From Bacteroidaceae bacterium (GTDB lineage Bacteria > Bacteroidota > Bacteroidia > Bacteroidales > Bacteroidaceae): a stretch of DNA of 64,000 bases. The stretch covers positions 1 to 64,000 of the forward strand of contig JAFXVZ010000032.1 in the NCBI GenBank assembly GCA_017534535.1, read 5' to 3'. Each line of letters opens with the position of its first letter. The stretch's first letter is position 1. Positions 97 to 49,431 of the stretch are shown in pieces. A program made the position numbers and the translations under genes. Below the pieces are notes generated by a model that saw only the letters and a list, made by a program, of their open reading frames with translations, did no database searches and was not told the DNA's origin.

Positions 97-162
97 GCTT
101 GGAGTAAATGCCCAGATTAATTGAAGGAAATGGTTTGATCGCTTAAAGCTATTGAGAAGTCG
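97..162 (+). repeat. 22-nt degenerate tandem repeat array C (3 units)
   Basis: Units 97-118, 119-140 and 141-162. They fit the consensus RSTTGAAGYAAATG, four free bases, then GATT. The first two units match nearly throughout; the third is weaker. The same unit recurs at 22885-22950, 39574-39661 and 49366-49431. Confidence 0.7.
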
Positions 163-500
163 CTCTGCGACTATGAGAATTGAGATCGTGCTACGCACGA
201 ATGAGTCCCTTCTTCTCTCTCTGTCACCAGAGATAGAAGAAGCAAGAGAGAGGCTGACGACTGCACCTGCGCAGCTAAAAATAAAGGGTTTTGACTACAA
301 AGAAATAACTCGCTTCGCTCTACAGATTTTTTAGCTTTACGTCAAATTCCCTTCATTTTATTAACGCTGCTCCGATGATGTCGGCTTTCGCCATTCGGAT
401 AGTTGCATTGAGGGCTATGGAAACAACCAGCCACATGGCTCACGGACCTATATGGGAAGCGATGCTAACCTAACAACACCCAATCATTCATAAATATGTA

Positions 501-1721
501 TCATTGATTTATATGATTCGATTCCATAACTTCAATGATAATACGCAAGGTATTGATGGTGGCAGGGAAGCCTATGTGAGGCATGCAGTTGATGACGGCA
601 GACACCACGGTCTCAGGGGTATTGCCCGCCTTGAGGCAACCCAGGAAATGGGAATGCAGTTGGCTGGGCGCTTGCAGTACTGTCAGCACCACGTAGGTAA
701 GCAGTTCGTGCATCTGCAGTGATAGACCATCACGCGAATAGATGTCGCCAAAGCAGACATCCGTCAGCAGGTCGGCCATTTGCTGTCCCATCTCACCAGG
801 CAGTCCGCTCATGGCACGGGCTATGCCGCCCTCGTATAATTGCCACTGGATGTCATGTCCCACTTGGTGACGAGTTGCAGGAGTAGTGGTGCCTTGGCTG
901 GGAAGAGGCAGGGTGATGCCCCGCTCTGTGAACAGACGGTTGACCACCTCCATGGCATCCAGCACCTTGGGAAAGCCTGCAAAAGGTGCCACCAGATAGA
1001 TGGCCTCGCGCAGCTCAACAGGGGTGACCCCAGCATCAAGGGCTGCACGGGCATGTGTTGCCACCTGCGACGCAGTGCCTAAAGCCGTGAGTGCCACACA
1101 CGATACCATCTCACGGGTCTTCAGGTCTAAATTGCCGATGTTACGCACATCCACGCCGTAGGCTCTCTGCATCAGGGCATACAGCTCCGGATCTGTCTGC
1201 ACGGATTGTTGATTGCTGGCGGATACACCTGCCAGATACTCTTCATCGGTCACTGCCCGCAGTTGATTAGCGTGAGGCTTGTCAGTGAGTTCTGTGACTG
1301 TAAGACATACACATGCTCCCTTTTCAGTAGCTCCATTCCAGTGCTTGGCATTGGCAGGCGTCACCACATAGTCACCCTTTCGCAACAGGCGCTTGGGTTG
1401 TCCTTCCTCTTGGTAGTAAGCTTCACCCTCGAGTATCATCAGCGTCTGCTCTGCATCGGGATGCAGGTGCCAGAAGTTGCGAGAGCCAGGTGTGAAAAGG
1501 AAATTCGCTATCATGCTGGTGCTGTTGTTTTTCAACAATCCTACATACACAGTACCTGTATTGTAATCGGCAGAAGCTGGTGCCGAAAGCGAATAGGCTA
1601 TGGTTAGTCCGTACTGCTGCTGGAGTTCAGCCACATTGATTGACTGGGTGGCAGGCTGTGCATAAGTCAAAGTACATGCCATAATTAATGTCAGTGTAAA
1701 AAAGAATTTCAATGTTTTCAT
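501..1721 (-). CDS. Secreted cupin / carboxymuconolactone decarboxylase family protein
   Basis: 406 residues with an N-terminal signal peptide ending near TLTYAQ. Residues about 60-150 form a cupin barrel (FWHLHPDAEQTLMILEGEA and a later H in NAKHWNG give the metal-binding histidines). Two AhpD-like CMD domains follow, at about 190-270 (EMVSCVALTALG) and 310-395 (LQMHELLTYVVLTVLQAP). Proteins of this build are usually annotated as 4-carboxymuconolactone decarboxylase-like, but in Bacteroidales the substrate is not known and no aromatic ring-cleavage genes are near. The canonical CxxC of AhpD peroxidases is not evident. It appears monocistronic, with a TATCTTTG -7 box at 1773-1766 on the minus strand. 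Confidence 0.85.
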   Translation of the reverse strand: MKTLKFFFTLTLIMACTLTYAQPATQSINVAELQQQYGLTIAYSLSAPASADYNTGTVYVGLLKNNSTSMIANFLFTPGSRNFWHLHPDAEQTLMILEGEAYYQEEGQPKRLLRKGDYVVTPANAKHWNGATEKGACVCLTVTELTDKPHANQLRAVTDEEYLAGVSASNQQSVQTDPELYALMQRAYGVDVRNIGNLDLKTREMVSCVALTALGTASQVATHARAALDAGVTPVELREAIYLVAPFAGFPKVLDAMEVVNRLFTERGITLPLPSQGTTTPATRHQVGHDIQWQLYEGGIARAMSGLPGEMGQQMADLLTDVCFGDIYSRDGLSLQMHELLTYVVLTVLQAPSQLHSHFLGCLKAGNTPETVVSAVINCMPHIGFPATINTLRIIIEVMESNHINQ

Positions 1722-1765
1722 GCCAATGGAGATTAATCAATGAATAAAAGCATAATAAATCGTTG

Positions 1766-1773
1766 CAAAGATA
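1766..1773 (-). promoter_or_regulatory. -7 box for the cupin/CMD gene
   Basis: Minus-strand TATCTTTG matches the Bacteroidetes TAnnTTTG -7 element, about 45 bp before the start codon at 1721. No clear -33 TTTG is seen. Confidence 0.5.
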
Positions 1774-1847
1774 ATACCATAATAACCATAGAGTGGTAAA
1801 TGTTTTACGGCCATGTGTACCTATTTTACGGAAAAGCAGGGGGGATA

Positions 1848-1881
1848 ACATAAGAAGGCTGCTGATGTAGCCTTCTTATGT
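1848..1881 (-). terminator. Terminator hairpin after the BspA-like gene
   Basis: A perfect 13-bp stem (ACATAAGAAGGCT with its complement) around an 8-nt loop, 37 bp past the stop codon of the minus-strand gene at 1919. The minus-strand flank after it is not strongly T-rich. Confidence 0.6.
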
Positions 1882-1918
1882 GTGATATGTGATATATCAT
1901 TAGCCAGATAAGTACTTA

Positions 1919-4411
1919 TTATGGCATTGCCTTGATTCGGTCGGCAAAGGAAGCCCACCATTCATTCGCCTTGTAGCTATCCACAGAACCAGCAGGCACA
2001 TAAATGATGGCATCCGTACCTATCAAAGCACCAAAACTCAATACGGGTGGAGTGGCTGGCATGCACATGATATAGGCGAGGTTACTGCAATTCTGGAAAG
2101 CATAGACACCAATCTCTGTCACACTTTCGGGTATCGTAAGATTTTCCAGACTTCTGCATTCAACAAATGTATTAATAGGGATGTTTGTCACACCTGAAGG
2201 AATATTGATGCTTATCAGGCTGCTGCAACGATTAAATGCGAAAAGGCCTATAGATGTCACGGTCTCAGGTATCTCAAGCTTGATCAGACTTCTGCATTCT
2301 TGGAAAACAAAATCGCCAATCCCTGTCAAGCTATCAGGCAATTTAATGCTGGTCAGATTGGAGCAACCCTCAAAAGCGCCTTTTGCTATGGAAGTTACTC
2401 CTGTGAAATACTGGAACTCATTGAAAGAGATTATGTCTTCTTGCCGCTTGAATATCTGACCGATATCCTTTACAGCAGCTGCCTCAGCATAACTCAGCTC
2501 ACCATCGCCGCTTGTATCCCAATTCTCAACGCAGATGGTCTTTACATAAGTGTCGGCAAAGAGGATATTATCTGTTGACGGTATTGCCTTGATTCGGTCG
2601 GCATAGTCGCTCCAACCTGCAGCATTCTTGTAATCTTCCAAGGAGGCTGAGGGGACATAGATAGGACAATCAGAGCCATCAAACGCATTACTATACAAAT
2701 GAGGCGGATCGAGAGGCAGAGAGGTAACGCTGGCCAGTTCGTCACAATCTTTGAAAGCTCTTTCACCGATGGCTATGACACCACCTGGTATCACGACGCT
2801 GAAGAGACCGGATTCCGAGAAGACTGCTCCGCCAATGGTTTTCAGGCTTTGAGGCAACTCAACGCCATTCAGGTTTACACATTTTCTGAATGCATCATGT
2901 GAAATGCCTGTCAATCCCTCATGCAGCTTAACACTGGAAAGATTCTCACAGCCATAAAAAGCATTAGCTTCTATGTGCAGAACCTTTGCAGGTATCTCAA
3001 TGCGGGTAAGACTAACGCAACCATAAAAAGTACTTGGGAAAATCCTATCAAGACTCTCAGGGAGCGTAACGTTGGAAAGGCTGGTGCAATTATAGAAAGC
3101 ACTATTAAAAATGGTTGTCACTCCTTCAGGTATCTCAATGCTGCTCAGGCCAGTACAATTCTGGAATGAGAAATAGCCAATGGTTGTTACACCTTCCGGA
3201 ATATCAATATTGGTCAGACTACTACAGCCATGAAAAGCAAAGTCTTCTAAAGATGTTACACCAGCAGGTATCTTTATGCTGGACAGGTTGGTGCAACCCT
3301 TAAAAGCTGAATTTGGTACTGACTTAATGCCTGTGAAATATTGGAATTCATCGAAGGCATTGATGTTAGTGGCATTTGAGAAGACATCACCTATATCCGC
3401 CACAGCAGCTGCCTCAGCATAACTCAGCTCACCATCGCCGCTTGTATCCCATTGCTCAACGCAGACAGCCTTTACATCATCGTCAGCAAAGATAATCGGT
3501 TCATTCTTTCTAAGTTCTTCCCCAATATCCACCGTCGGGTAATGGTTTATCTCACCACGCTTGATTTCCACGGATGCGGTTGTCTTCTTAATAATGCTTA
3601 CCGGCGCTCCAGTTACATCACGACTCTTAACCTCCAAGCTAAAGCCTTGCTCGAAAACCATTGGCGGCAAAGGGAAGTAAATGTCCACCACTTCGCCATC
3701 TTCCAGCGAGCCGTTAATGTACGTACGGAAGTCACCACCCAAGGTAGTGGGAGGTGCTGTGGTGACTGACTGTTTGGAGTCCAATTTAATGACAGGCTCT
3801 GCTGCTGAGAGGTCAACGGTTCCTGTGCCATAGAGCATCTCACCATTGTTGCCACGAAGATAGATTTCATTAATCCTGGTAGCGCCGGTGATGTTGAAGT
3901 GAATCATACCACCCAACTGCTTGAATACAAGATTGTTGTTATTAGAAACAGCCAGCATGGGGATATTGATGAGATCTCCCTCATTGACTCCTTGTGAGAA
4001 TAATGTGATGTGGAGAATGTTGGGGTTTTCGGCATCCTTTTCAATGAATGTTTCGGAAGAATAGGTGGGGAAAGCGGGGAAATAAGCATAGAATTCAGTT
4101 CCCGTTACCTCATCTTCTCCTACGAAAGTTGCTTTATTACCATCAACAATTCTTGGCGAGTAAAATTTTAACTCAGGATCCATATCACTGAACACGGCAA
4201 TCTGATCTTTCTCACCCCACCGCACACTTCTTTTGCCGTCTTGAACAACATCACCCATAGAAACACGGGTGTCAGCAGGCTCACCAATGGTAGCTGTGAA
4301 GGAGGTAAAAGTCTTTAATCCTTCATCAATACCATCACGAAAATCGTCATTTGTACAGGCTGATAATCCGAATGTCATCAAGATTATGCCCCAATACTTG
4401 ATAGCTTTCAT
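1919..4411 (-). CDS. BspA-like leucine-rich repeat lipoprotein with fimbrillin-like N-terminus
   Basis: 830 residues from the MKAIKYWG start, chosen over an upstream ATG because it gives a clean lipoprotein signal with lipobox LSAC. Residues about 25-290 resemble Mfa-like fimbrillin domains (VRWGEKDQIAVFS, YFPLPPMVFEQGF). Two modules follow, each opening with an EF-hand-like loop DTSGDGELSYAEA (about 322 and 632) and continuing into LRR_5 repeats of the TSIGDFAFxGCSSLT type. The first ends in YVPSASLEDYKNAAGWSDYADRIKAIP and the second in a near-identical cap, so the protein is an internal duplication. It is probably cell-surface exposed and adhesive, as known for BspA proteins of Tannerella and Prevotella. 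It stands alone, with a promoter at 4443-4436. Confidence 0.88.
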   Translation of the reverse strand: MKAIKYWGIILMTFGLSACTNDDFRDGIDEGLKTFTSFTATIGEPADTRVSMGDVVQDGKRSVRWGEKDQIAVFSDMDPELKFYSPRIVDGNKATFVGEDEVTGTEFYAYFPAFPTYSSETFIEKDAENPNILHITLFSQGVNEGDLINIPMLAVSNNNNLVFKQLGGMIHFNITGATRINEIYLRGNNGEMLYGTGTVDLSAAEPVIKLDSKQSVTTAPPTTLGGDFRTYINGSLEDGEVVDIYFPLPPMVFEQGFSLEVKSRDVTGAPVSIIKKTTASVEIKRGEINHYPTVDIGEELRKNEPIIFADDDVKAVCVEQWDTSGDGELSYAEAAAVADIGDVFSNATNINAFDEFQYFTGIKSVPNSAFKGCTNLSSIKIPAGVTSLEDFAFHGCSSLTNIDIPEGVTTIGYFSFQNCTGLSSIEIPEGVTTIFNSAFYNCTSLSNVTLPESLDRIFPSTFYGCVSLTRIEIPAKVLHIEANAFYGCENLSSVKLHEGLTGISHDAFRKCVNLNGVELPQSLKTIGGAVFSESGLFSVVIPGGVIAIGERAFKDCDELASVTSLPLDPPHLYSNAFDGSDCPIYVPSASLEDYKNAAGWSDYADRIKAIPSTDNILFADTYVKTICVENWDTSGDGELSYAEAAAVKDIGQIFKRQEDIISFNEFQYFTGVTSIAKGAFEGCSNLTSIKLPDSLTGIGDFVFQECRSLIKLEIPETVTSIGLFAFNRCSSLISINIPSGVTNIPINTFVECRSLENLTIPESVTEIGVYAFQNCSNLAYIMCMPATPPVLSFGALIGTDAIIYVPAGSVDSYKANEWWASFADRIKAMP

Positions 4412-4435
4412 AGTGAAGAAGTTTATTGTTTGTTG

Positions 4436-4443
4436 CAAATATA
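4436..4443 (-). promoter_or_regulatory. -7 box for the BspA-like gene
   Basis: Minus-strand TATATTTG, a perfect TAnnTTTG element 25 bp before the chosen start at 4411. This supports the MKAIKYWG start over the ATG at 4438, which would fall at or before the transcription start. Confidence 0.55.
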
Positions 4444-4571
4444 ATCATTTATCTGAAGAAAAGAAAGCTTTCAACCTTGTTTTTTTATAAAACAATGAAA
4501 GATGGCGGTGTTTTTATAAAAAGATATGCTAAATAATATACAGAAAAGTTGGAAATGTGGGGGAAAAGGTG

Positions 4572-4579
4572 TAGGTTTG
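4572..4579 (+). promoter_or_regulatory. -7 box for the small lipoprotein gene
   Basis: TAGGTTTG fits TAnnTTTG and lies 18 bp before the ATG at 4598; a near-match GTTG sits about 20 bp upstream. It excludes the earlier in-frame ATG at 4526. Confidence 0.5.
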
Positions 4580-4597
4580 CGAAATAATAGTCATTGC

Positions 4598-5230
4598 ATG
4601 AAAAGATACATGTACATATTGTTGGCGATGCTCTTATGTGCCTCTTGCCATCCGGTGAGGACTTTCAGGGTGAATAACCTGGTGGGGCGTGAGGTGCAAC
4701 AGACACTGAATTATCCCTACAGCTATGACCCTGTGTCAATAGAGGTGGACAGTGCGTTCTCGCCTTACGACTCGCCTATGTTCTACGACTTGCTGGTGGA
4801 GGATATGAGCTTGGACATAAGCATCGAGGCGTATGACACGAATATCAGGACTTACCTGATGACGATGGGTGTGGCAGAGAAGAGTTTCTCACCTGATGCG
4901 AGACGACAGTTTGAGGAGGCGAGGGCTGAACTTCAGAAGAATGTGGAGATGAAACGCGAAGCAGTGGCAAGGCAGTATGCTGTGAAGAACGGGATTGAGC
5001 GACTGAGGCAGGCGCCCAGGCAGTTTATCGGGTTTAAGGCATATCATAAGTATCATGCAATGGATAATAGCCTCAGGTTGTTGTTGCTGCATGAGTTGTT
5101 TATCGTGAGTCCCGGGCTGGATGCTATCCTGGGGAGGTATGACCTTGGTGACAAGTATGATCAGGGGATTAGGGAGAGGATTGAGGAACAGCGGACAGAG
5201 GATAGGAAGGTTGAGATGGAGGAGATATAA
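4598..5230 (+). CDS. Small lipoprotein of unknown function
   Basis: 210 residues from MKRYMYILLAMLLCASC, a typical lipoprotein signal with the modified cysteine at about residue 17. The mature protein is mainly helical. It is rich in Glu, Arg and Lys around residues 100-135 (RRQFEEARAELQKNVEMKREAVARQ is the core of a likely coiled coil) and ends in a charged tail. I do not recognise a family. It is transcribed away from the BspA-like gene, with only about 185 bp between the two starts, so the pair may share control. The frame ends directly at a heptamer repeat block (5232-5280). Confidence 0.65.
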   Translation: MKRYMYILLAMLLCASCHPVRTFRVNNLVGREVQQTLNYPYSYDPVSIEVDSAFSPYDSPMFYDLLVEDMSLDISIEAYDTNIRTYLMTMGVAEKSFSPDARRQFEEARAELQKNVEMKREAVARQYAVKNGIERLRQAPRQFIGFKAYHKYHAMDNSLRLLLLHELFIVSPGLDAILGRYDLGDKYDQGIRERIEEQRTEDRKVEMEEI

Positions 5231-5231
5231 G

Positions 5232-5280
5232 AATGAAGAATGAACAATGAACAATGAAGAATGAACAATGAACAATGAAA
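5232..5280 (+). repeat. Heptamer array, 7 units of AATGAAS/A
   Basis: Seven contiguous 7-bp units (AATGAAG or AATGAAC, last AATGAAA) directly after the stop codon at 5230. A second block in inverted orientation (TTATTCA units) lies at 5364-5384 beyond the 49-bp hairpin core. Confidence 0.85.
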
Positions 5281-5288
5281 GACTTCTC

Positions 5289-5337
5289 GGAGCAGCGAGA
5301 GCAGAGCGATGCTTGCATCGGCTATGCCGAGTCGCGA
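5289..5337 (+). repeat. 49-bp hairpin-rich repeat, copy 1
   Basis: Matches 7173-7221 at 48 of 49 bases. It contains small palindromes CGATGC-TT-GCATCG wait-free and CGGC-TAT-GCCG, and is flanked on both sides by heptamer blocks, so it looks like a composite interspersed repeat rather than part of a gene. Confidence 0.8.
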
Positions 5338-5363
5338 GGAGATTGGGCGAAGCCAATGAAGAA

Positions 5364-5384
5364 TTATTCATTATTCACTATTCA
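5364..5384 (-). repeat. Heptamer array, inverted flank of the 49-bp repeat
   Basis: Three units TTATTCA, TTATTCA, CTATTCA, which read TGAATAA-like on the minus strand, opposite in sense to the block at 5232-5280. Confidence 0.65.
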
Positions 5385-5408
5385 TTAAATAAACTGAAGC
5401 CAATGAAT

Positions 5409-5431
5409 AGGGGGAGTTTTTGACTCCCCCT
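5409..5431 (-). terminator. Terminator hairpin after fumarase
   Basis: A 9-bp G/C-rich stem (AGGGGGAGT with its complement) and a 5-nt loop, 26 bp past the fumarase stop on the minus strand. Confidence 0.7.
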
Positions 5432-5456
5432 AATTATTACAACTAAAGTTTTAGTT

Positions 5457-7100
5457 TTACTTGCAAGCGCAACGAGGCTTGATTTGCTTGAAGAAGTCGT
5501 TGCCCTTGTCATCTACCAGGATGAAGGCTGGGAAGTCAACTACCTCAATCTTCCAAACGGCTTCCATACCCAACTCTGGATATTCCACACACTCGATGCT
5601 TTTGATGTTGTTCTGTGACAACACTGCAGCAGGACCGCCGATAGAACCGAGGTAGAAGCCACCATGCTTCTTGCAGGCCTCAGTCACCACATCGGTGCGG
5701 TTACCCTTAGCAATCATCACCATTGAGCCACCGTGATCCTGGAACTCATCTACGTAAGGATCCATGCGGTTAGCGGTGGTCGGACCCATAGAGCCGCAAG
5801 GCATGCCCTTAGGTGTCTTGGCAGGACCAGCATAGAGCACAGGATGATCCTTGAAGTATGCCGGCAAATCCTCACCAGCATCCAGACGAGCCTTCAGCTT
5901 GGCATGTGCGATGTCGCGAGCCACGATGATGGTGCCGTTCAGTGATACGCGGGTTGCCACAGGATACTTTGACAGAATCTTGCAAACCTCACTCATCGGC
6001 TGGTTCAGGTCAATCTTCACCACATCACCCTCGCCTGCCTGACGCAGAGCTTCAGGAATCAATTCGCCTGGATTATCATCCAGCTTCTCAATCCAGATAC
6101 CATCCTTGTCAATCTTGGCCTTGATGTTGCGGTCAGCAGAGCAAGACACACCCATACCGATAGGACAAGAGGCACCATGACGAGGCAGACGAACCACACG
6201 GATGTCGTGTGCCATATACTTACCGCCAAACTGAGCGCCCAAACCGATGTTGTAAGCCTCTTCGAGGAGCTGCTTCTCCAGCTCTACATCACGGAAAGCA
6301 CGGCCATATTCGTTGCCTGTGGTAGGCAGTTCATCGTAGAAATGAGTAGATGCCAACTTCACGGTGAGCAGGTTCTTCTCTGCAGAAGTGCCACCAATCA
6401 CGAAAGCGATGTGATAAGGAGGACAAGCTGCTGTGCCTAAGCTCTTCATCTTATCTACCAAGAAAGGAATCAGCGTGCCGGGATTCTGGATGCGAGCCTT
6501 GGTCTCCTGATAGAGGTAAGTCTTGTTGGCTGAACCACCACCCTTAGTGACGCAGAGGAAGCGATACTCCATGCCCTCAGTAGCCTCGAGGTCAATCTGA
6601 GCAGGGAGGTTGCACTTGGTGTTCACCTCGTCATACATGTTCAACGGAGCATTCTGGGAATAGCGCAGGTTCTCCTCAGTGTAGGTCTTGTAAACGCCTA
6701 ATGAAAGAGCCTCTTCATCGCAGTAGCCCGTCCACACCTGCTGACCTTTCTCGCCGTGGATAATGGCGGTACCAGTGTCCTGACAAGTAGGAAGCTGACC
6801 CTTGCAAGCCACCTCAGAGTTGCGGAGGAACGACAGAGCCACATACTTGTCGTTGTCGCTGGCCTCTGGGTCAGACAAAATCTTAGCCACCTGCTCGTTA
6901 TGAGAGCGGCGCAGCATGAACGACACATCACGGAAAGCAGCATTTGCCAAAGCGGTCAAGCCTTCCTTCTCAATCTTCAGGATAGGTTTGCCCTCAAACT
7001 CGCTTACTGACACATAGTCTTTGGTAAGCAGATAATACTCAGTCTTATCTTCACCATGCTCGAACATGGGTTGATAGTGGAACGGAGGATTTGTTGCCAT
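5457..7100 (-). CDS. fumA: Class I (iron-sulfur) fumarate hydratase
   Basis: 547 residues, the usual length of the fused alpha/beta class I fumarases. It hydrates fumarate to malate in the reductive branch that yields succinate in Bacteroidales. The N-terminal part carries PTCQDTGTA (first cluster cysteine) and [22 protein letters not shown] supplies a later cysteine. The C-terminal half has [20 protein letters not shown] and [14 protein letters not shown], typical of the beta domain. It is a cytosolic single-gene unit: a terminator follows and a spacer of tandem octamer and heptamer repeats precedes it. No frameshift or missing key segment is visible. Confidence 0.95.
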
Positions 7101-7103
7101 AGT

Positions 7104-7143
7104 TGTTAGTTTATTAGTTTATTAGTTTATTAGTTAAATAGTT
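7104..7143 (+). repeat. Tandem octamer repeat upstream of fumarase
   Basis: Five 8-bp units (TGTTAGTT, three TATTAGTT, AAATAGTT) lie directly before the fumarase start codon, in the untranslated leader or promoter region of that gene. Confidence 0.75.
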
Positions 7144-7172
7144 TAATAATCAATTGTCAATTGTCACTTTTT

Positions 7173-7221
7173 GGAGCAGCGAGGGCAGAGCGATGCTTGC
7201 ATCGGCTATGCCGAGTCGCGA
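7173..7221 (+). repeat. 49-bp hairpin-rich repeat, copy 2
   Basis: Near-identical to 5289-5337 and again flanked by heptamers (GTCAATT units to the left at 7150-7166, four units to the right at 7236-7263). It lies between the DUF4954 gene and fumarase. Confidence 0.8.
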
Positions 7222-7235
7222 CAAAATAGGACGGA

Positions 7236-7263
7236 GTCAATGGTCAATTGTCAATCGTCAATG
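7236..7263 (+). repeat. Heptamer array overlapping the DUF4954 stop codon
   Basis: Four units GTCAATG, GTCAATT, GTCAATC, GTCAATG. On the minus strand this writes the last residues LTIDN and the TGA stop of the gene ending at 7244, so the repeat supplies the stop codon. Confidence 0.8.
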
Positions 7264-20755: not shown

Positions 20756-22540
20756 TTATTTCAATAATGGTATTTCAATGCTGCTCTGCGCATCCAAGTA
20801 AAGGGTTTGGTGTGCCACTCGCGTCTTACCTTGCGCCGACCACACGCCAGCATAATTGCTGTGTACGCTATACTGGGGGAAGTCGGACGAGGAGATGTCG
20901 AGGCGAATCTTACTGCCCGGCTGGAGTTGCCACATAATAGGCAAGGATTCGACATGCAGTTCCACCTGACTCCCAGGCTCATAGGTTTGACGAGCTCCCA
21001 ATGGGTTATTGCGGAAACCTAAAGTGGTGATGCCCGTGCGTATGTTGTAGGTCTTGCCATCGGGGAAGACCTCGCTAATCTTGTAGGTGAATGCGGTATC
21101 GTCGCAGTCGGTGCTTACGTGCAAGTTGATTTTCACCTGACCAGCAATGAGCAAGGGCTCTGTCAATGCCTCAGATACGAAGGACAATACATCGGGACGA
21201 TAGCCTACTTCGGGTTGCAATTGGCTACCTCTTCTTGTCGATGAATTAAACAAGGTTTCGCCACCAATGGAGAGGACTGGGTTTGTAGGGTCGTAATCAT
21301 ATTGACAATTGAAAGTTGATGATTGACGATTATCTTTGGTCAATTTACCATCTTTCGCCAAGTAATATACCGCAGTGTTACTATTATCCTTCATAGGCCA
21401 GCTACTTAAGCTATGCCACTTATCCTCACCAATCGCATATACCTTCACATCAGGCTTAGGTTCTTCGCCCTTCACCAACAAGTCATAGAACCACTGGAAC
21501 TGCAAGGTAGTGAGGTTGATATCCGTAGCATGGTCAAACCTACCAATCTGAGGTGTAATGATGTGCGAGTGATTCCAAGCACCTACAATGAGTTGGCTCT
21601 TGGCCTTGGTCTCCTCTGGCAAAAGGTTATAACCCAGAATAGTCCCCTCTTGATGATGGTCGAAATGACCTGCCACTACTACGATAGGCACTTTAATCTT
21701 AGGAGGAATGCTGCGCAGGGTTGCCCAAACACCCTGATGCCAATACGGATCGGTATAATCGGTATGCGAAATCCAATCACGATACCAAGGCAGCTCCACT
21801 CCAAAGAAATGAGTGTCCATCTGCTGCTGAGGCATGTAAGCCATCTGTTCGAAATACACCTTATCCAAGTCGGGTTTGGCAGGCTTCTCCTTGATTTCCT
21901 CGGCATTGTCTATCGCCCAAGCGGTAAGGATGTCTTGACGAAAGGCACCGTTGCTGTAAGCCGAGAGGTGACGGTCAACACCGTAGTGATGTATGAAGAT
22001 GCCCTTTACTTTCTCTGGCAATATATCGGCAATAATCCACGCTGTAAGTGCAGTGTAAGATTCTCCGAACAATCCGATGTTCTTACACCAAGGCTGATCA
22101 GCCACCCAGTTCACGAGTGCCAAACCATCGGAACGCTCATTCACATTGGGCTCATAAACACCTTCCGAGCCACCTTTACCTCTACAATATTGCACAATAT
22201 AAGCAATACCTCTGCGCGCATATGCTTGTCCTAAACGATCTGTATCCTCTAAACCGAGCCAGGTATAAGGGGTACGCATTACCAATACGGGCCAAGGACC
22301 CTGTGTTGTGGGTTTGTAAATGCGCGTCTTGAGATTCAGCCCATCGGCGGTTTGCACATCTATTAATTGGTACGCGTACCCGCACATAGGAGGAGCAATC
22401 TGAGTAGAGTCAGGCACAGCCGACACCGTTGAATGCCTCATCATCTCGCGATAAGCATCCAATTGAGTCTGCGTAAGTTGCTGAGCCTGAGCTACTATAC
22501 ACAACGTCGCCACCCATATTGCAAACAACATTCTATTCAT
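20756..22540 (-). CDS. Secreted CocE/NonD family serine hydrolase (X-Pro peptidase-like), copy 1
   Basis: 594 residues, signal peptide ending VAQAQQ. An alpha/beta-hydrolase core spans about 50-350 with nucleophile motif GLFGESYTA, then VVAGHFDHHQEG and a histidine near GAWNHSHIITPQ. A C-terminal jelly-roll domain (residues about 400-594) is typical of PepX/CocE proteins. Homologues cleave acyl or X-Pro bonds; the real substrate is unknown. A heptamer array (21301-21335) writes NRQSSTFNCQ at the junction of the two domains. A paralogue lies at 49772-51658. It is probably the first gene of the five-gene secreted-protein operon, with a promoter at 22574-22567. Confidence 0.87.
   Translation of the reverse strand: MNRMLFAIWVATLCIVAQAQQLTQTQLDAYREMMRHSTVSAVPDSTQIAPPMCGYAYQLIDVQTADGLNLKTRIYKPTTQGPWPVLVMRTPYTWLGLEDTDRLGQAYARRGIAYIVQYCRGKGGSEGVYEPNVNERSDGLALVNWVADQPWCKNIGLFGESYTALTAWIIADILPEKVKGIFIHHYGVDRHLSAYSNGAFRQDILTAWAIDNAEEIKEKPAKPDLDKVYFEQMAYMPQQQMDTHFFGVELPWYRDWISHTDYTDPYWHQGVWATLRSIPPKIKVPIVVVAGHFDHHQEGTILGYNLLPEETKAKSQLIVGAWNHSHIITPQIGRFDHATDINLTTLQFQWFYDLLVKGEEPKPDVKVYAIGEDKWHSLSSWPMKDNSNTAVYYLAKDGKLTKDNRQSSTFNCQYDYDPTNPVLSIGGETLFNSSTRRGSQLQPEVGYRPDVLSFVSEALTEPLLIAGQVKINLHVSTDCDDTAFTYKISEVFPDGKTYNIRTGITTLGFRNNPLGARQTYEPGSQVELHVESLPIMWQLQPGSKIRLDISSSDFPQYSVHSNYAGVWSAQGKTRVAHQTLYLDAQSSIEIPLLK
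21301..21335 (+). repeat. In-frame heptamer array inside the CocE hydrolase gene
   Basis: Five 7-bp units (ATTGACA, ATTGAAA, GTTGATG, ATTGACG, ATTATCT on the plus strand). On the coding (minus) strand they encode a NRQSSTFNCQ-like peptide in the linker before the jelly-roll domain. Confidence 0.7.
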
Positions 22541-22655: not shown

Positions 22656-22829
22656 ATACAGAAATACAGAATACAGTTTCTTTGGGAAGATGTATCAACG
22701 GTAAGTAAAAAAAGAGAATAATAAATTTTATTATTATATATATAATAAATATTATATATATAATAATAAGTTTTGTTTTGGCAGTTGGATGATGTGTCGC
22801 TGAGAAAACTGTATTCTGTATTTCTGTAT
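22656..22829. repeat. MITE-like element with 24-bp terminal inverted repeats
   Basis: 22656-22679 (starts ATACAGAAATACAGAATACA) is the exact reverse complement of 22806-22829. Nested inside is an AT-only hairpin (22728-22769) with a 19-bp perfect stem and loop AAAT. The right arm lies in the 52-bp sequence that recurs at window positions 1-52. No coding capacity. Confidence 0.75.
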
Positions 22830-22845
22830 CAAAAGGCTAAGACAG
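22794..22845 (+). repeat. 52-bp dispersed repeat, copy 2
   Basis: 51 of 52 bases match positions 1-52. Array D of the 22-nt repeat begins 40 bp downstream, as array C does after copy 1. Confidence 0.85.
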
Positions 22846-22884: not shown

Positions 22885-22950
22885 GCTTGTAGCAAATGCC
22901 CCGATTGACAGAAACAAATGTACTGATTACTTGAAGTAATTGACAGGAGG
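22885..22950 (+). repeat. 22-nt degenerate tandem repeat array D (3 units)
   Basis: Units 22885-22906, 22907-22928 and 22929-22950. Units one and two share AAATG then GATT at the same offsets; unit three is ACTTGAAGTAATTGACAGG-like. The array ends 35 bp before the -33 box of the nitrilase promoter. Confidence 0.7.
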
Positions 22951-39413: not shown

Positions 39414-39760
39414 GTTTCTCATCTATTATACCTCTATTCAAGCCAGAGCTTACAAGTAGCAAAGTGTCTGTTTGGTTATTCCAAGCTGGAAGCTTGATTA
39501 TTGCAAACTTTGGGTGTGCTTAGGCTTCGATTCGCAGAAAGGGGAAAAGCGACATTTAGAACACTTAAGAATTGCTTGAAGCTAATGCTTCAATTAGTTG
39601 AAGTAAAAGGGGCGTTTACTTCGGGAGGATGGTCCATTTGCTTGGACTAAATGAGCCTTATGCCCGGAGCACCTAAAAACAATCCTAAAAGGAGAAATTT
39701 AGAACAGTTTTGCTGTTGGCTTTTTATCGTTACTCAAAATAGTATCTTTCCCCAAAAACA
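39414..39760. other. Intergenic region with array A, no credible gene
   Basis: No gene is supported. It contains the longest 22-nt array (39574-39661, with a weaker fifth unit to 39683) and two related copies of a TTTAGAACA motif on either side of it. A possible 72-codon frame starting before the tRNA is an artefact. Confidence 0.6.
39574..39661 (+). repeat. 22-nt degenerate tandem repeat array A (4 units)
   Basis: Units 39574-39595, 39596-39617, 39618-39639 and 39640-39661; GCCCGGAGCACCT at 39662 looks like a decayed fifth. The first two read GCTTGAAGCTAATG and AGTTGAAGTAAA at their starts. The array ends 99 bp before the carbonic anhydrase promoter. Confidence 0.7.
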
Positions 39761-40363: not shown

Positions 40364-40375
40364 ATCAAAAAGATT

Positions 40376-42179: not shown

Positions 42180-42755
42180 ATGGAAAACAAGTTTATAACG
42201 GTTGCCTACAAGCTCTACACCATTGAGGATGGCGACAAGGATTTTGCAGAAGAGGCTACCGCCGAGAAGCCTTTCGAGTTTATTTCAGGGGTGGGTCTGA
42301 CTTTGCCTCAGTTTGAGGAGCATATCAAGGATTTGCAAGCTGGCGAGACTTTCGATTTCGTGATTGACAAGGAGAATGCTTATGGTATTTATGACGAACG
42401 CCAGGTGGTGACATTGCCCAAAAAGACTTTCGAGATTGACGGCAAGTTCGACAGTGAACACATTGTGGAAGGTGCTATCATTCCATTGATGAATGCTGAG
42501 GGTCAGCGTTTCAATGCCAGTGTGAGCGAGATTACTGAGAATGAGGTAACTGTTGACCTGAACCATCCTTTGGCAGGTTGCGACCTGCAGTTCATGGGTA
42601 CTGTGATTGAAAGTCGCCTCGCCACCAATGAGGAACTTGCCGCTGTTGCCAAGATGATGAGTGGCGGATGCGGAGGTTGCGGTGGTGGATGTGAGAGTTG
42701 TGGCGAGGGCGGATGCGAAGGCGGATGCGAAGGTGGTTGCAATGGTTGCAACTAA
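42180..42755 (+). CDS. SlyD-like FKBP-type peptidyl-prolyl isomerase with cysteine-rich tail
   Basis: 191 residues. The FKBP domain (KPFEFISGVGLTLPQFEEHI) and the inserted chaperone flap (AYGIYDERQVVTLPKKTFEI, AEGQRFNASVSEI) match SlyD. The last 32 or so residues are almost only Gly, Cys and Glu, with eight cysteines, replacing the histidine-rich metal tail of E. coli SlyD. This suggests a metal-binding (nickel, copper or zinc) folding helper; that is an inference. Its stop overlaps the convergent CyuA-like gene by 4 bp. Confidence 0.9.
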   Translation: MENKFITVAYKLYTIEDGDKDFAEEATAEKPFEFISGVGLTLPQFEEHIKDLQAGETFDFVIDKENAYGIYDERQVVTLPKKTFEIDGKFDSEHIVEGAIIPLMNAEGQRFNASVSEITENEVTVDLNHPLAGCDLQFMGTVIESRLATNEELAAVAKMMSGGCGGCGGGCESCGEGGCEGGCEGGCNGCN

Positions 42756-44047: not shown

Positions 44048-44070
44048 GACATAATCTCATTTAGGTTTTG

Positions 44071-44078
44071 CAAAAATA
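44071..44078 (-). promoter_or_regulatory. -7 box for the CyuA-like gene
   Basis: Minus-strand TATTTTTG, 24 bp before the start at 44047. Confidence 0.5.
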
Positions 44079-44145
44079 AGAAAAAAATTGGTGAATGTCA
44101 GAAAAAGTACTTACCTTTAGCTGTTCAAATGAAGATTTTTGCAAT

Positions 44146-45222
44146 ATGTTCAATACTTATGGTAATATTTTCCGACTGACAACCTTCGGAGAGTCGCATG
44201 GAGCAGGCATCGGAGGGGTAGTTGACGGCATGCCGGCTGGCATAGAGATTGATATGGATTTCATACAACAGGAGCTCAGTCGCAGAAGGCCTGGACAATC
44301 GGCTTTAACTACCTCGCGCAAAGAACCCGACGAGGTGGAACTTCTCTCTGGTGTATTCGAAGGTAAATCAACTGGAACTCCCATTGGTTTCTTGGCACGA
44401 AACACCAATCAACATAGTCAGGATTACGACAACCTGCGTGATGTGTTCCGCCCTTCTCACGCCGACTTCACCTATCAGATGAAATATGGTATCCGTGATC
44501 ATCGAGGCGGAGGACGGTCCTCGGCTCGTGAAACCATAGCCCGCGTAGTAGGTGGTGCTTTGGCAAAGTTAGCACTGAAGCAATTGGGTGTCCACATCAC
44601 AGCTTATACGCAACAAGTAGGTAATATCTCTTTAAACAAAGGTTATACTGATTATGATTTCTCTCTGATAGAACAGAATTCCGTTAGATGCCCAGATCCG
44701 GACAAAGCTGCTGAGATGGAAACCTTAATCAAAGAAGTGAAAGCAGCAGGAGACACCATTGGCGGAGCTATCCGATGCGTCATTCAAGGTTGTCCCATTG
44801 GTTTGGGAGAACCTGTTTTTGGCAAACTACATGCAGCTTTGGCAAGTGCAATGATGGGCATCAATGCCGCCAAAGGTTTTGAATATGGCGAGGGCTTTGG
44901 TGGAATGAATATGCGAGGCTCTGAGCAAAATGATGTGTTCTATAATAAGAATGGTATCATCGAAACTCGCACCAACCACTCGGGTGGCATACAAGGTGGT
45001 ATCAGCAACGGACAAGACATCTGTTTCCGTGTGGCATTCAAGCCTATAGCAACTCTGCTCTTTGAGCAACCCACTGTGGATATTGCAGGAAATGAAGCTG
45101 TTGTAAAAGCCAAAGGTCGTCATGACCCTTGTGTCCTACCTCGTGCTGTGCCTATCGTTGAGGCTATGGCAGCTATGACAATTCTCGATTATTACTTACT
45201 CAATAAAACTACCAAACTATGA
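44146..45222 (+). CDS. aroC: Chorismate synthase
   Basis: 358 residues from [19 protein letters not shown], the usual start; an upstream in-frame ATG at 44095 gives an unlikely extension. It catalyses the last shikimate step, EPSP to chorismate, with reduced flavin. Signatures: [10 protein letters not shown], the [16 protein letters not shown] loop, GSEQNDVF and [10 protein letters not shown] near the C-terminus. Its end overlaps the downstream peptidase by 4 bp (ATGA). Confidence 0.96.
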
Positions 45223-46568
45223 TTAAACAATACATCCAAGACAATGAGGCTCGTATGCTGGACGAGCTTTTCAGCTTGATTCGCATCCCCAGCATCAGTT
45301 CAGAATCGGCACATAAAGAAGATATGATTCTTTGTGCGGAACGATGGAAAGAGTTGCTCTTAGCAGCTGGTGCCGATAAAGCCGAGGTGATGCCTTCAGA
45401 TGGCAACCCAATGGTTTATGCCGAGAAAATGGTTGACCCCAATGCCAAAACCATCTTGATTTATGGACATTACGACGTGATGCCCGTGGAGCCATTAGAC
45501 CTTTGGAAGACTGATCCTTTCGAGCCGGTTATCAAAGATGGAGTTATTTGTGCTCGTGGTGCTGACGACGATAAAGGTCAGAGCTTCATCCAAGCGAAAG
45601 CTTTTGAATATGTGGTAAAGAACGGCTTGCTGAAGCATAATGTGAAGTTCATCCTCGAGGGTGAGGAAGAGATTGGTTCCATGAGCTTGGAGCCTTTCTG
45701 CGAGAAGCACAAGGAAATGCTGAAGGCAGATATCATCTTGGTTTCTGACACCTCTATGTTGGGTAAAGACCTGCCCTCATTGACTACGGGTTTGCGAGGC
45801 TTGTCTTATTGGCAATTGGAGGTGACTGGTCCTAACCGTGACCTGCATAGTGGACACTTTGGTGGTGCCGTTGCCAATCCTATCAATGTGCTTTGCAAGC
45901 TAATAGCTCAGATGACGGATGCTGATGGCCGTATCACCGTACCTCATTTCTACGACGATGTAGAGGAGGTGCCGGCTGAAGAGCGCGAGATGATTGCCCA
46001 CATCCCATTCGATTTGGAGAAATACAAGAAGGCCATTGATGTGGAAGAGGTTTGTGGAGAGAAGGGCTATTGCACTTTAGAGCGCAATAGTTGTCGTCCT
46101 TCTTTCGATGTGTGTGGCATTTGGGGTGGTTATACGGGCGAAGGTGCCAAGACAGTAATCCCAAGCAAGGCTTACGCCAAGATTTCCACACGCTTGGTGC
46201 CTCATCAGGATAACGAGAAGATTGGTCAACTGATGATGGATTACCTTCAGGAGATTGCCCCTAAGAGTGTGAAAGTGAAGGTGGAATACCTGCATGGAGG
46301 CGAGAGTTATGTGTGCCCTATCTCATTGCCTGCTTACAAGGCTGCAGAAAAGGGTTTCGAAAAGGCGTTTGGCAAGAAGCCTTTGGCTGTGCGTCGTGGG
46401 GGTAGTATTCCTATCATCGCCACGTTCGAGAAGGTGCTGGGCATCAAGACAGTCCTCATGGGCTTTGGCCTCGAGAGCAATGCCATCCATAGCCCCAACG
46501 AGAACTTCCCTCTCGAGATTTTCCGCAAGGGCATTGAAGCTGTAGTGGAGTTCCACAAGAACTTCTAA
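45219..46568 (+). CDS. M20 family dipeptidase
   Basis: 449 residues, ArgE/DapE/PepV-like metallopeptidase. Zinc ligands and catalytic residues: YGHYDVMP (His, Asp), [22 protein letters not shown] (Glu pair), a later Asp in LVSDTSMLG and His near [13 protein letters not shown]. The dimerisation domain sits at about 185-330. It is a cytosolic dipeptidase and probably recycles peptides imported for amino-acid fermentation. Coupled to aroC by overlapping start and stop codons. Confidence 0.92.
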
Positions 46569-46589
46569 GTCTATGCCAAAATATGAAAA

Positions 46590-46617
46590 AGGCACTCCGA
46601 AAAGAGTGCTTTTTTTA
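46590..46617. terminator. Bidirectional terminator between the M20 peptidase and topB
   Basis: GCACTC with its complement around loop CGAAAA, flanked by an A-run on one side and a long T-run on the other. It serves both genes; the topB stop lies at its edge. Confidence 0.85.
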
Positions 46618-48846
46618 TGGTTTTACTGAAAAGGGGAGGCGGAAGGTACATCCAGTTTTCCATTCTGAACAGCCATAGGCAGTTTTGCCCTTAATTATAT
46701 GACCATGAGCACATACAGGGCAAGGCTTTCCAATGATGCTATCATCAGGAACCATTTTTTCGTTGAACGTTGACGACTGACCATTGATAGTTGGCTTAAC
46801 TCCATCATTACGGACTTTACCCGCTACCTCATCCGAACTATTATTGACCTTAGTTTGCTGCACTTTAAGCTTTTGCTGGCCATTCACCTTTGCTGACTTC
46901 TTCTTTTTCTTCTCCTCTTCAGGATTCACTACAGTAATGCGACGATTCGAATTATCCGATAGTACAGCATTCACAATCTCAGTCACCATTTGCTTCAGTT
47001 CATCGAGGAACTGTCCTGCTTGGTAAGTTTTCTTTTCTATCTCACGCAACTTCTTCTCCCAAAGACCTGTGAGCTCAGCGCTCTTGAGCAGCTCCTCTCG
47101 AATGAGGCCAATCAGTTCGATACCTGTTGGGGTAGCCACCAAAGTCTTACGTTCCTTACGAATATAATTGCGCTTGAACAACGTCTCAATGATAGCAGCT
47201 CTTGTTGATGGGCGACCAATGCCATTCTCCTTCATAGCATCTCGCAACTCATCGTTATCCACCAACTTACCAGCAGTTTCCATCGCTCTCAGCAAAGTCG
47301 CCTCCGTATAAGGCCTTGGGGGTTGCGTCCACTTTTCCTGTAGTTCAGGGAAATGAGGACCTTGCTCACCTTTCTTAAATTGAACGTTCACCGTTGACCG
47401 TTGGCCGTTATTCTCTCCTGATTCCTCATCAACATCTCCTTTAAACACCACCCGCCAACCAGGATCAAGAACTTGTCGCCCACTGGTTTTGAAGGGGATA
47501 TCCTCTACCCTACCTTCTATCGTTGTAGTACTGATCTTGCACTCTGGATAGAACACAGCTATGAAATGTCGAGCCACCAGGTCGAACACTTTCTTCTCTT
47601 GGTCAGTCAGGTTTACAGGAGGCTGACCCGTTGGGATAATGGCATGGTGGTCAGTCACTTTGGAGTTGTCGAAGACTTTCTTGCTCTTAGGTAATGGACC
47701 GTTGACCGTTGACCGTTGACCATTGACCGTTTTGCCAACAAGAGGTTCTGTTAGGCTTTCATAGCCCTTCAAGCCTCTAAGAATATTCGGGCATTTGGGA
47801 TAGATATCATCACTCAAGAAGGTGGTATCCACACGAGGATAAGTCGTTACCTTCTTCTCATACAGACTTTGGATGAGCTTTAGCGTTTCATCGGCGCTGA
47901 AATTGAACTTCTTGTTACAATCCACCTGCAGAGAAGTCAAATCATACAAACGGGGAGGATATTCCTTACCCTGCTTCTTCGTCACATCCGTCACTTCGAA
48001 AGGCAAGTCCTTGATGCGTTCCACCAAAGCCAAACCATCTGCCTCATTAGCGATGGGTTCCATACCTGGATTATCAATTTTTGAGATATCGACAGGCTCA
48101 TCGTCCTTCTTATTCTTCTCAGCCTCCGCAATCAGTTCTTCGTCACTTTTCTTCACCACTGCATTGAACAACGTATCGCGATAGGTAGTTTTGAGCTCCC
48201 AATATTGGCGAGGCACAAAGTTCTCGATTTCCTGTTGGCGATTCACAATCAGCGCCAAAGTGGGGGTTTGCACACGTCCGATACTCAGAACCTGGCGATT
48301 CTGACCATATTTAATGGTATAAAGGCGTGTGGCGTTCATGCCTAAGAGCCAATCGCCGATGGCACGACTCAATCCTGCCTCATAGAGCGACTGATAGTCG
48401 GATGCCTCATGCAATCGGTTAAATCCCTCACGGATAGACTCTTCCGTCAGGGATGAAATCCAAAGTCTTTTTACGGGACACTTCGCCCCAGCTTTCTGCA
48501 TCACCCATCGCTGTATCAGTTCTCCCTCCTGACCAGCATCACCACAGTTGATGATCATGTCGGCTTTCTGCATCAGTCCCTCAATGATGTGGAACTGCTT
48601 CTCGTATGTAGGATTAGAGATGAGTTTGATGCCGAAGCGTGGAGGTACCATTGGCAAGGAGCCTAAGCTCCAAGATTTCCAAGCATCTGTATAATCCTGC
48701 GGTTCTTTGAGTGTACAAAGATGACCGAAGGTCCAGGTTACCTGATAACCGTTACCCTCGATATATCCGTCCTTGCGTTCCCTCGCCCCCAAGACCTGCG
48801 CTATATCCCTTGCCACCGATGGTTTTTCTGCTATGCAAACAATCAT
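46615..48846 (-). CDS. topB: DNA topoisomerase III
   Basis: 743 residues from MIVCIAEKPSVARDIAQVLG. A toprim domain (INCGDAGQEGELI) is followed by the type IA core with SIGRVQTPTLALI and the catalytic-tyrosine motif TTYPRVDTTFLSDD, then RPSTRAAIIETL. A C-terminal four-cysteine zinc ribbon (CPVCAHGH ... GCSEWKTGC) closes the protein. It relaxes and decatenates DNA. Oddly, the gene has three or four heptamer-derived inserts encoding VNGQRST-like peptides (residues about 377, 484, 660 and 689). The first two fall inside the core and the others in the C-terminal linker. Confidence 0.94.
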   Translation of the reverse strand: MIVCIAEKPSVARDIAQVLGARERKDGYIEGNGYQVTWTFGHLCTLKEPQDYTDAWKSWSLGSLPMVPPRFGIKLISNPTYEKQFHIIEGLMQKADMIINCGDAGQEGELIQRWVMQKAGAKCPVKRLWISSLTEESIREGFNRLHEASDYQSLYEAGLSRAIGDWLLGMNATRLYTIKYGQNRQVLSIGRVQTPTLALIVNRQQEIENFVPRQYWELKTTYRDTLFNAVVKKSDEELIAEAEKNKKDDEPVDISKIDNPGMEPIANEADGLALVERIKDLPFEVTDVTKKQGKEYPPRLYDLTSLQVDCNKKFNFSADETLKLIQSLYEKKVTTYPRVDTTFLSDDIYPKCPNILRGLKGYESLTEPLVGKTVNGQRSTVNGPLPKSKKVFDNSKVTDHHAIIPTGQPPVNLTDQEKKVFDLVARHFIAVFYPECKISTTTIEGRVEDIPFKTSGRQVLDPGWRVVFKGDVDEESGENNGQRSTVNVQFKKGEQGPHFPELQEKWTQPPRPYTEATLLRAMETAGKLVDNDELRDAMKENGIGRPSTRAAIIETLFKRNYIRKERKTLVATPTGIELIGLIREELLKSAELTGLWEKKLREIEKKTYQAGQFLDELKQMVTEIVNAVLSDNSNRRITVVNPEEEKKKKKSAKVNGQQKLKVQQTKVNNSSDEVAGKVRNDGVKPTINGQSSTFNEKMVPDDSIIGKPCPVCAHGHIIKGKTAYGCSEWKTGCTFRLPFSVKP
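46762..46796 (+). repeat. In-frame heptamer array in topB (C-terminal linker)
   Basis: Five 7-bp units (GTTGAAC, GTTGACG, ACTGACC, ATTGATA, GTTGGCT on the plus strand) encode INGQSSTFN on the minus strand. A more decayed block lies near 46840-46890 (VNGQQKLKVQQ). Confidence 0.7.
47379..47413 (+). repeat. In-frame heptamer array in topB (core)
   Basis: Five 7-bp units on the plus strand (ATTGAAC, GTTCACC, GTTGACC, GTTGGCC, GTTATTC) encode NNGQRSTVNV on the coding strand. Confidence 0.75.
47701..47731 (+). repeat. In-frame heptamer array in topB (near the active-site region)
   Basis: Three identical GTTGACC units, one ATTGACC and a partial GTT. On the coding strand they give TVNGQRSTVNG, the cleanest example of the peptide written by this repeat. 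Confidence 0.85.
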
Positions 48847-48863
48847 AAATATCAATTTGGGTG

Positions 48864-48894
48864 CAAAGATAGTGCAAGCCGAAGACAGAACAAA
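48864..48894 (-). promoter_or_regulatory. Promoter of topB
   Basis: On the minus strand TTTG (48894-48891), a 19-bp spacer and TATCTTTG (48871-48864), 18 bp before the topB start. The leader would be only about ten bases. Confidence 0.7.
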
Positions 48895-48988
48895 ATAAAC
48901 TGTTTATTTTTTATGGGGAGGCGAAGCCTATCTTATCTAAAGATAGTGGAAAGAGTTAATGGAACAAATAATGGTTAGTTATTTTTAT

Positions 48989-49033
48989 GTATAGGCGAAG
49001 CTTGTATCACCAAATAGTGCAAGCTGACTATAC
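48989..49033 (-). terminator. Long imperfect hairpin after the GG-leader peptide gene
   Basis: GTATAG/CTATAC at the base, an internal loop, then AGCTTG/CAAGCT and CAC/GTG towards the tip. It begins 32 bp past the stop at 49065 and is a likely terminator or 3' end structure. Confidence 0.55.
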
Positions 49034-49064
49034 GCTTCTCATTCTATTCCAAGTTATTCCCTAT

Positions 49065-49265
49065 TTAATTCCCAACAGGAGCACACTCTCTTAATATACT
49101 GTTACCACCAAATGTATATCTTCCACCTGCCACATTATCCAACTCATCGTCAGATAGTTCTTCACGCATAACCACCTGAGCATCCTTATCCACGCCCTCG
49201 ATAGTGAGTTTCTTTACATTGTCGTCAATTTCAATCTGCACGATTTTTTTGTTCTTGGTTTCCAT
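49065..49265 (-). CDS. Small peptide with a double-glycine leader (possible RiPP precursor)
   Basis: 66 residues. The leader has the acidic helix and cleavage signature EELSDDELDNVAGG (GG at residues 47-48) that marks Bacteroidales GG-type natural-product or bacteriocin precursors. The predicted core is 18 residues, RYTFGGNSILRECAPVGN, with one cysteine. No maturase, radical-SAM enzyme, peptidase-transporter or immunity gene is found in this window, so it would be processed in trans or is a solo gene. A minus-strand TATCTTTG -7 box (49299-49292) sits between arms of a 9-bp inverted repeat. Confidence 0.7.
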   Translation of the reverse strand: METKNKKIVQIEIDDNVKKLTIEGVDKDAQVVMREELSDDELDNVAGGRYTFGGNSILRECAPVGN

Positions 49266-49269
49266 ATCG

Positions 49270-49315
49270 TTAACAATTTAATAACATTATGCAAAGATAC
49301 AAAATGAATTGTTAA
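49270..49315 (-). promoter_or_regulatory. -7 box flanked by a 9-bp inverted repeat (GG-leader gene)
   Basis: TTAACAATT at 49270-49278 and AATTGTTAA at 49307-49315 surround minus-strand TATCTTTG (49299-49292). The arrangement suggests an operator over the promoter; both arms being AT-rich, chance is possible. Confidence 0.45.
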
Positions 49316-49365
49316 AAGACAGGGAAATGGTCTGTTAAATATTGTGAAGAGCCCCTGTTCAACTT

Positions 49366-49431
49366 GCTTCAAGCGAATGGCTTGATTAGTTGAAGTAATC
49401 GGGCCTTTTAGTTGAAGCAATCACTTAACTT
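49366..49431 (+). repeat. 22-nt degenerate tandem repeat array B (3 units)
   Basis: Units 49366-49387, 49388-49409 and 49410-49431, opening GCTTCAAGCGAATG, AGTTGAAGTAAT and AGTTGAAGCAAT. Downstream GAGGATGG also occurs after array A. Confidence 0.7.

Follow-up and report, generated by a model that had tools for sequence, protein, structure and literature searches.

Intergenic 22-bp tandem arrays in a Bacteroidaceae genome form the core of short modular elements, and their period recurs in other species

Four loci in a stretch of 64,000 bases from a Bacteroidaceae genome (hereafter the window; the genome, G000, comprises 2.7 Mb in 49 contigs and is 89% complete) carry a degenerate 22-bp sequence in tandem, raising the question of what kind of element these arrays represent and what holds their period. 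A sequence-only reading of the window had proposed four arrays with 13 units in total, and all of them were recovered at the coordinates proposed for them, in a register of exactly 22 bp. The arrays and the sequences that accompany them are listed here by position in the window, with E values from a profile, R1, that is described below.

1..52, + strand: dispersed 52-bp sequence preceding the family-A leader, near contig ends here and at contigs C2, C36 and C35
97..162, + strand: 22-bp array of family A, 3 units; a leader at 53-96 lies in front and is common to the copies at C2, C36, C35 and C31
22794..22845, + strand: second window copy of the dispersed 52-bp sequence, 98% identity over 52 bp, 39 bp ahead of the array at 22885
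22885..22950, + strand: 22-bp array, 3 units with a weak middle unit; R1 profile E 4.5e-8, units in the training set
39553..39563, + strand: left flank motif of family C', CATTTAGAACA, recognized by eye; also left of the array at locus L125, less exact at L129
39574..39661, + strand: 22-bp array of family C', 4 units; R1 E 3.4e-10, in the training set
39662-39683, + strand: degenerate fifth unit of family C', continuing the 39574 array in phase
39695..39706, + strand: right flank motif of family C', AAATTTAGAACA, recognized by eye
49366..49431, + strand: 22-bp array of family D, 3 units; R1 E 1.5e-10, in the training set
49432..49475, + strand: family D continuation in phase, a TCGAGAGAATTTTGAA block followed by the diverged unit CTCGGAGAGGATGGACGGTCAG

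The array at 49366 runs on in phase past the end first assigned to it, and the profile search placed a further array at contig position 64839, just beyond the window. Four units, at 22907, 39618, 141 and 49410, score low, below one non-array site, in a matrix trained on the same 13 units. The 39618 unit (beginning ACTTCGGGAGGATG) is found again as the third unit at other loci, and we regard it as real because it recurs there as a unit type. The non-coding location proposed for all four arrays held for three, which overlap no ORF of at least 80 aa, but the array at 22885 overlaps a 94-aa ORF, which we take as spurious. By our own simple ORF calls, which are not an annotation, 53 of 57 arrays have no overlapping ORF and 4 overlap a short one. 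The common strand direction likewise applies to the four arrays of the window but not to the genome, where matches divide into 26 forward and 26 reverse.

To determine how far the family extends within G000, the two-unit pattern TTGAAGYAAATGNNNNGATTNNTTGAAG was searched with up to 3 mismatches, yielding 52 matches (several per array, with near-palindromic arrays able to match on both strands) versus 1 for the reversed control, so that the 22-bp arrays are not the product of chance. Profile R1, built from 27 two-unit stretches that match by construction, gave at least 77 matches in G000 at E ≤ 1, among them at least 36 separate loci at E < 1e-3, a lower bound because 150 of the 1348 first-look candidates were scored. 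The possibility that the family has no further copies, raised with the first description of the arrays, can thus be set aside. The proposed comparison of the 22-bp phase with shuffled DNA did not refute the arrays either: after dinucleotide shuffling, intergenic DNA yielded no tandem match over lags 9 to 60. At identical thresholds, however, the noncoding DNA of the window itself also lacked any lag-22 locus, owing to the degeneracy of its four arrays, and larger samples are needed for the lag-22 phase test to succeed.

Outside its own genome, this array sequence appears from profile and pattern searches to occur in few genomes only. At E ≤ 1e-6 the profile matched in 4 of 158 genus-group genomes (G000 with 31 matches, G260 with 5, G006 with 3 and G281 with 1), a search in which part of the first-look candidates was scored and misses are possible. 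All four of these genomes are less than 90% complete; with stricter search filters in use, the 93 genus-group genomes of 90% or higher completeness and no more than 5% contamination had no such match. The match coordinates in G260 and G006 are those of G100 and G101, which contain loci of the metagenome-assembled genomes RGIG9776 (yak omasum) and RGIG4876 (roe deer rumen), both labelled Bacteroidaceae bacterium. A phylum-group draw of 118 genomes returned pattern matches in G000 and in 3 others, the latter with 1 match each at 2 mismatches, which we take as chance. Genome G018, first noticed via a pattern match, contains 22-bp arrays of another sequence with a common TTGAAG core.

The unit itself approximates RSTTGAAGYAAATGGCYCGATT and is nearly palindromic, its opposite strand reading nearly alike, and its two dyads are centred on positions 5 and 16, a spacing of 11 bp. 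In a set of 170 distinct units taken from 57 arrays, positions 1 and 9 (purine-pyrimidine, R1-Y9) were paired in 92 units compared with 71 in shuffled units (0 of 1000 shuffles as high), and positions 4-6 paired weakly above the shuffled level (3 of 1000 shuffles); pairs 3-7 and 2-8 and all pairs of the second dyad showed no covariation in the same 170 units.

We considered whether the arrays are transcribed and act as tandem or long hairpins in a structured RNA, be it an sRNA, a leader or a 3' UTR element. Promoter-like sites (TTTG-N18-22-TAnnTTTG) follow three of the window arrays as the sequence-only reading had stated, 35, 100 and 273 bp past the array ends. Such sites, directed away from the array, accompany 12 of 36 arrays compared with 60 of 720 random points, which is suggestive, but the association is not significant against length-matched array-free gaps (12/32 vs 5/28, p=0.15). 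Arrays of families C and C' can be folded into long hairpins, with z to -5.9 on the consensus strand, and the consensus strand gives the better fold of the two strands in 40 of 57 short arrays. Across 11 family C/C' elements, however, mean folding on the two strands was -35.9 vs -35.3 kcal/mol, with the consensus strand better in 5 of 11, and an arm-swap test gave pairing of 0.583 within elements vs 0.589 between elements at the best axis (permutation p=0.76). Given arms without covariation, conservation seems to lie in the sequence at each position of the phase and not in base pairing. The arrays occupy long gaps (median 522 bp), and the 45 with both neighbours called fall into 13 convergent, 12 divergent and 20 co-directional gaps, counts that stand without a baseline for all gaps; divergent gaps are not avoided, which together with the arms lacking covariation argues against a structured RNA. 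Rfam 15 identified tRNA only, both in the window at gathering scores and in 13 loci at E up to 0.5. On balance, the two-strand folds, the arm-swap test, the unit covariation and the Rfam search do not support a structured RNA, which we consider highly improbable, and the mostly negative RNA tests suggest that double-stranded DNA, not RNA, is the more likely form in which the element acts. The two options put forward with the first description have thus fared differently: the structured RNA is disfavoured, and a helix-face array for a cooperative protein fits the 11-bp dyad spacing and the sequence-level conservation.

The arrays do not stand alone. Each forms the core of a short non-coding element of modular build, made up of a leader, about 2-7 units and a tail, and we treat leader, array and tail as one element because the flanks are common to copies. 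Array length ranged from 2 to 7 units among the 57 arrays, and the longer elements in which they are embedded were sorted by eye into families A, B, C, C', D and E. Over 134-179 bp, the family-A copies at C2, C36, C35 and C31 share 85-95% identity with the window. Contig ends are close to the copy in the window and to those at C2, C36 and C35, so a longer repeat probably adjoins these four. Family D contains a CTCGAGAG-type block, to which some copies add diverged in-phase units. The left flank motif of family C has 8 sites in G000 vs 2 for the reversed control; for 7 of the 8 an array is about 25 bp away, and the remaining site, with 3 mismatches, lies within the tail of one of those seven elements. 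Family C ends in GCATAAATAT-type motifs in direct orientation, as judged by eye.

Comparison of the array loci with G100, in which matched regions beside the window arrays are about 80-84% identical, provided one informative alignment. The array at 49366 has a G100 counterpart in the same gap, with units 1-2 identical (44/44) and 95 of 110 bases identical over the array and its continuation, compared with 53/110 in the left flank, 77/110 in the right flank and 136/175 further right. At this one locus, the array is better conserved between G000 and G100 than its flanks. G100 has extra diverged units in phase on the right, so that unit number differs in register between species at one locus, a difference seen once. 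A short ORF near 49366 is identical at 100 of 121 positions, and the conservation of the array locus over 110 bp is about that of this ORF. The array at 39574 had no copy on C61, the corresponding contig of G100, among the profile matches listed and in 811 bases read, and we conclude that this array is not indispensable. Three more gaps hold arrays in both species (L143/L165, L126/L171 and L148/L164), with sequences or families too different for good alignment; they are not counted as evidence because both sides were fetched for holding arrays.

A modular build of this kind could belong to a selfish non-autonomous mobile element of MITE- or REP-like type, in which a transposase or related enzyme recognizes the palindromic units and sets the 22-23 bp period. 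Consistent with this explanation, several families keep a leader or tail at a fixed offset from the array, the 39574 locus shows a presence/absence difference, and a known MITE of Porphyromonas gingivalis is described with a 23-nt tandem core and IS5-like ends (PMC4596501). Searches for the corresponding machinery count against it: the REP-associated transposase RAYT (PF01797) had no match in G000 (89% complete as noted), G018 or G023, and six RAYT loci in G100, G101 and G011 had no lag-22 locus within about 3 kb, by a method that misses degenerate arrays. Likewise, the end sequence of the P. gingivalis element is not enriched near the arrays. No target-site duplication was found, in an empty-site comparison that gave no clean boundary. 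We regard a mobile element with an enzyme-set period as rather unlikely.

The period itself recurs beyond this sequence family. A set of 69 genus-group stretches, none of them selected for arrays and together comprising 109 kb of noncoding DNA, contained 42 noncoding tandem loci, 22 of them at lag 22 and 6 at lag 23, with none at lags 16-20 and 24-29; the loci are not independent, since some adjoin each other or belong to one family. The peak at 22-23 was stable over four threshold settings, and 4 of 57 coding tandem loci of the genus group fell at one of these two lags. Other Bacteroidales families, sampled in 31 stretches, had lag 22 at 2 of their 8 noncoding loci; five stretches from other Bacteroidota, a small control of 10 kb noncoding DNA, had 0 of 2 noncoding loci at lag 22 or 23, and three E. 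coli stretches contained no noncoding tandem locus. Lag 41 occurred once in each of two sample groups. These counts rely on a greedy ORF mask, with low-complexity loci and loci lying 30-70% inside ORFs dropped and stretches of less than 1,000 bases skipped (by locus length, 2 of the 69 genus-group and 2 of the 31 other-family stretches). The G000 stretches in the sample avoided known loci of the array family, and the genus-group set takes in one G100 stretch fetched as a window orthologue.

The sequences of the 22/23-bp arrays look unrelated between species, and it is the period, not the sequence, that stands out as recurring across them. Dyad symmetry was significant (p<0.05) in 15 of 30 lag-22/23 arrays relative to column-shuffled arrays (Fisher p 8e-13; two of the arrays are from other families), the remaining 15 not being significantly dyad-symmetric. 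Two genomes picked from the lag-22/23 tandem loci each have a family of their own: G011 a 22-bp family with 26 matches vs 0 for the control, and G023 a 23-bp family with 88 matches vs 10 for the control, each with 0 matches in two other genomes searched. Fragmented assembly alone is no explanation, since examples lie on contigs of 6.5 Mb (G020) and 5.3 Mb (G029). In the open literature, judged from titles and the starts of abstracts, with subscription journals mostly outside that scope, we recognized no report of the 22-bp family or of a 22-23 bp period shared across Bacteroidales; tandem-repeat units of up to 11 bp are discussed in PMC4060949.

A common period in unrelated sequences could also arise if slippage or template switching at palindromes favours duplications of 22-23 bp in this clade, making the arrays neutral minisatellites without a role. 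Besides the recurrence of the period across species, the location of the arrays in long gaps and the in-register difference in unit number at 49366 agree with this explanation. Slippage without a preferred length should spread the period, however, yet lags 16-20 and 24-29 are empty in the 42 loci; the units at 49366 are better conserved than their flanks, and the distinct leader and tail modules common to several loci are left unexplained. We consider neutral minisatellites improbable.

Together, these data are best read as describing a modular DNA element comparable to BrickBuilt, a MITE of P. gingivalis; the core of the element here resembles a cooperative array of putative dimer-binding sites. 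Dyads one helical turn apart and repeating every two turns would present cooperative sites to a dimeric DNA-binding protein, and protein-protein spacing would fix the period at 22-23 bp. Copying of the element within each genome may then let its letters drift together. Other species of the group do have different sequences with the same period. As a whole, this account, combining a modular element, a cooperative dimer-binding array, a period fixed by protein spacing and within-genome copying, has in our judgement slightly less than an even chance of being correct, the binding being inferred; it predicts a footprint period of 11/22 bp. A broader proposal, which we hold to be doubtful, is that the arrays belong to a class of Bacteroidales intergenic elements defined by geometry, that is, tandem palindromes of 22-23 bp whose separate high-copy families are re-invented or replaced in each species and whose period is held by a putative conserved architectural protein or enzyme.

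How do the arrays compare with known repeat systems? A CRISPR array is ruled out, as the units are contiguous at exactly 22 bp, without unique spacers. Pneumococcal BOX elements resemble the arrays in being modular intergenic elements whose middle module is repeated a variable number of times, and differ from them in phylum, unit length and sequence. REP and BIME elements, as described in PMC3733652, PMC2817692 and PMC3116915, share with the arrays the form of small intergenic palindromes in many copies that are sometimes clustered, but the units here are contiguous at 22 bp; a REP/BIME system with a RAYT mobilizer is not supported, with no RAYT in G000 and 0 of 6 RAYT loci in relatives accompanied by a lag-22 locus. 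For P. gingivalis, PMC4596501 cites the 464/PgRS MITE as well as tandem repeats of 22, 23 and 41 nt in strain W83 whose exact locations were not identified; the same period classes (22, 23 and 41) occur in our sample.

The view that no named element is like these arrays did not survive this comparison, since BrickBuilt is a close named analogue, albeit unrelated in sequence. It is described in PMC4596501 as having 19 intergenic copies with a spacer-less 23-nt tandem core of variable unit number, a leader and a tail, predicted long stem-loops and IS5-like ends. The arrays likewise are intergenic and multi-copy, with a spacer-less tandem core of about two helical turns between leader and tail; they differ in being short (2-7 units) and in having several alternative leader and tail types. 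Membership in BrickBuilt is supported by neither unit nor end sequence: within 300 bp of the 57 arrays, the best matches to the BrickBuilt unit AGAYCATARTATCCTCTCRTRTG had 6-10 mismatches vs 7-10 in 57 controls, and the terminal inverted repeat GAGACCTTTGCA was not enriched, with 2-4 mismatches near the 57 arrays vs 0-5 in 57 controls. Should conservation act on the period and not on the sequence, BrickBuilt would exemplify a widespread chromosomal feature, and the constraint on period would point to a protein or enzyme common to a group of gut bacteria.

A stretch of about 3 kb that includes a family-A array (a type with a shared leader, sorted by eye) is 95.7% identical between the window's own genome, G000, and a relative, G100 (fetched stretches L141 1203-4198 vs L159 1157-4173). 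Most other matched regions of the two genomes are only ~65-88% identical, with one 487-bp match at 92%, and the segment is possibly a recent transfer or a mobile segment.

A 52-bp dispersed sequence containing a CTGTATT heptad repeat (window 1-52 and 22794-22845) adjoins arrays and also lies close to several contig ends. An inverted partial copy is located ~115 bp away at window 22656-22679, and contig C24 has a similar arrangement.

By eye, some family-A-like arrays are also adjoined by tandem units composed of GAGAA plus a hairpin. These units and the genes neighboring the arrays are as follows.

Window 151-208; L133 from 4043; L141 beside its array: GAGAA-plus-hairpin units, by eye
Window 20756-22540, minus strand: X-Pro dipeptidyl-peptidase (S15/PepX) gene, adjoining an array
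Window 49065-49265, minus strand: ORF of 66 aa containing a stretch, ELSDDELDNVAGG, that resembles a double-glycine leader
Window 49772-51658, plus strand: X-Pro dipeptidyl-peptidase (S15/PepX) gene, adjoining an array

As judged by eye, the hairpin units recur with a period of ~22 bp, and their stems vary in sequence while self-complementarity is kept (e.g., GTCGC..GCGAC, ACTTGC..GCAAGT and GTTGC..GCAAC). A second repeat family, one whose stems have undergone compensatory changes, is what these units resemble.

The 66-aa ORF beside the 49366 array is possibly a peptide precursor. Part of it is 100/121 identical in G100; a Pfam search returned no match, and its match to the CTB bacteriocin family was below cutoff.

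Tandem repeats were also observed elsewhere. G018, from the same genus group, carries 22-bp arrays of about six copies at L175 and L176, the latter with the consensus TTCTTGAAGTCAACGGAACAAC, and both share a TTGAAG core with the window's 22-bp family. Separately, noncoding tandem repeats of 41 bp occur in G000 and a genome from another family (L183 5796, L260 3640), and their period equals that of the P. gingivalis MITE 464/PgRS repeat, as cited in PMC4596501.
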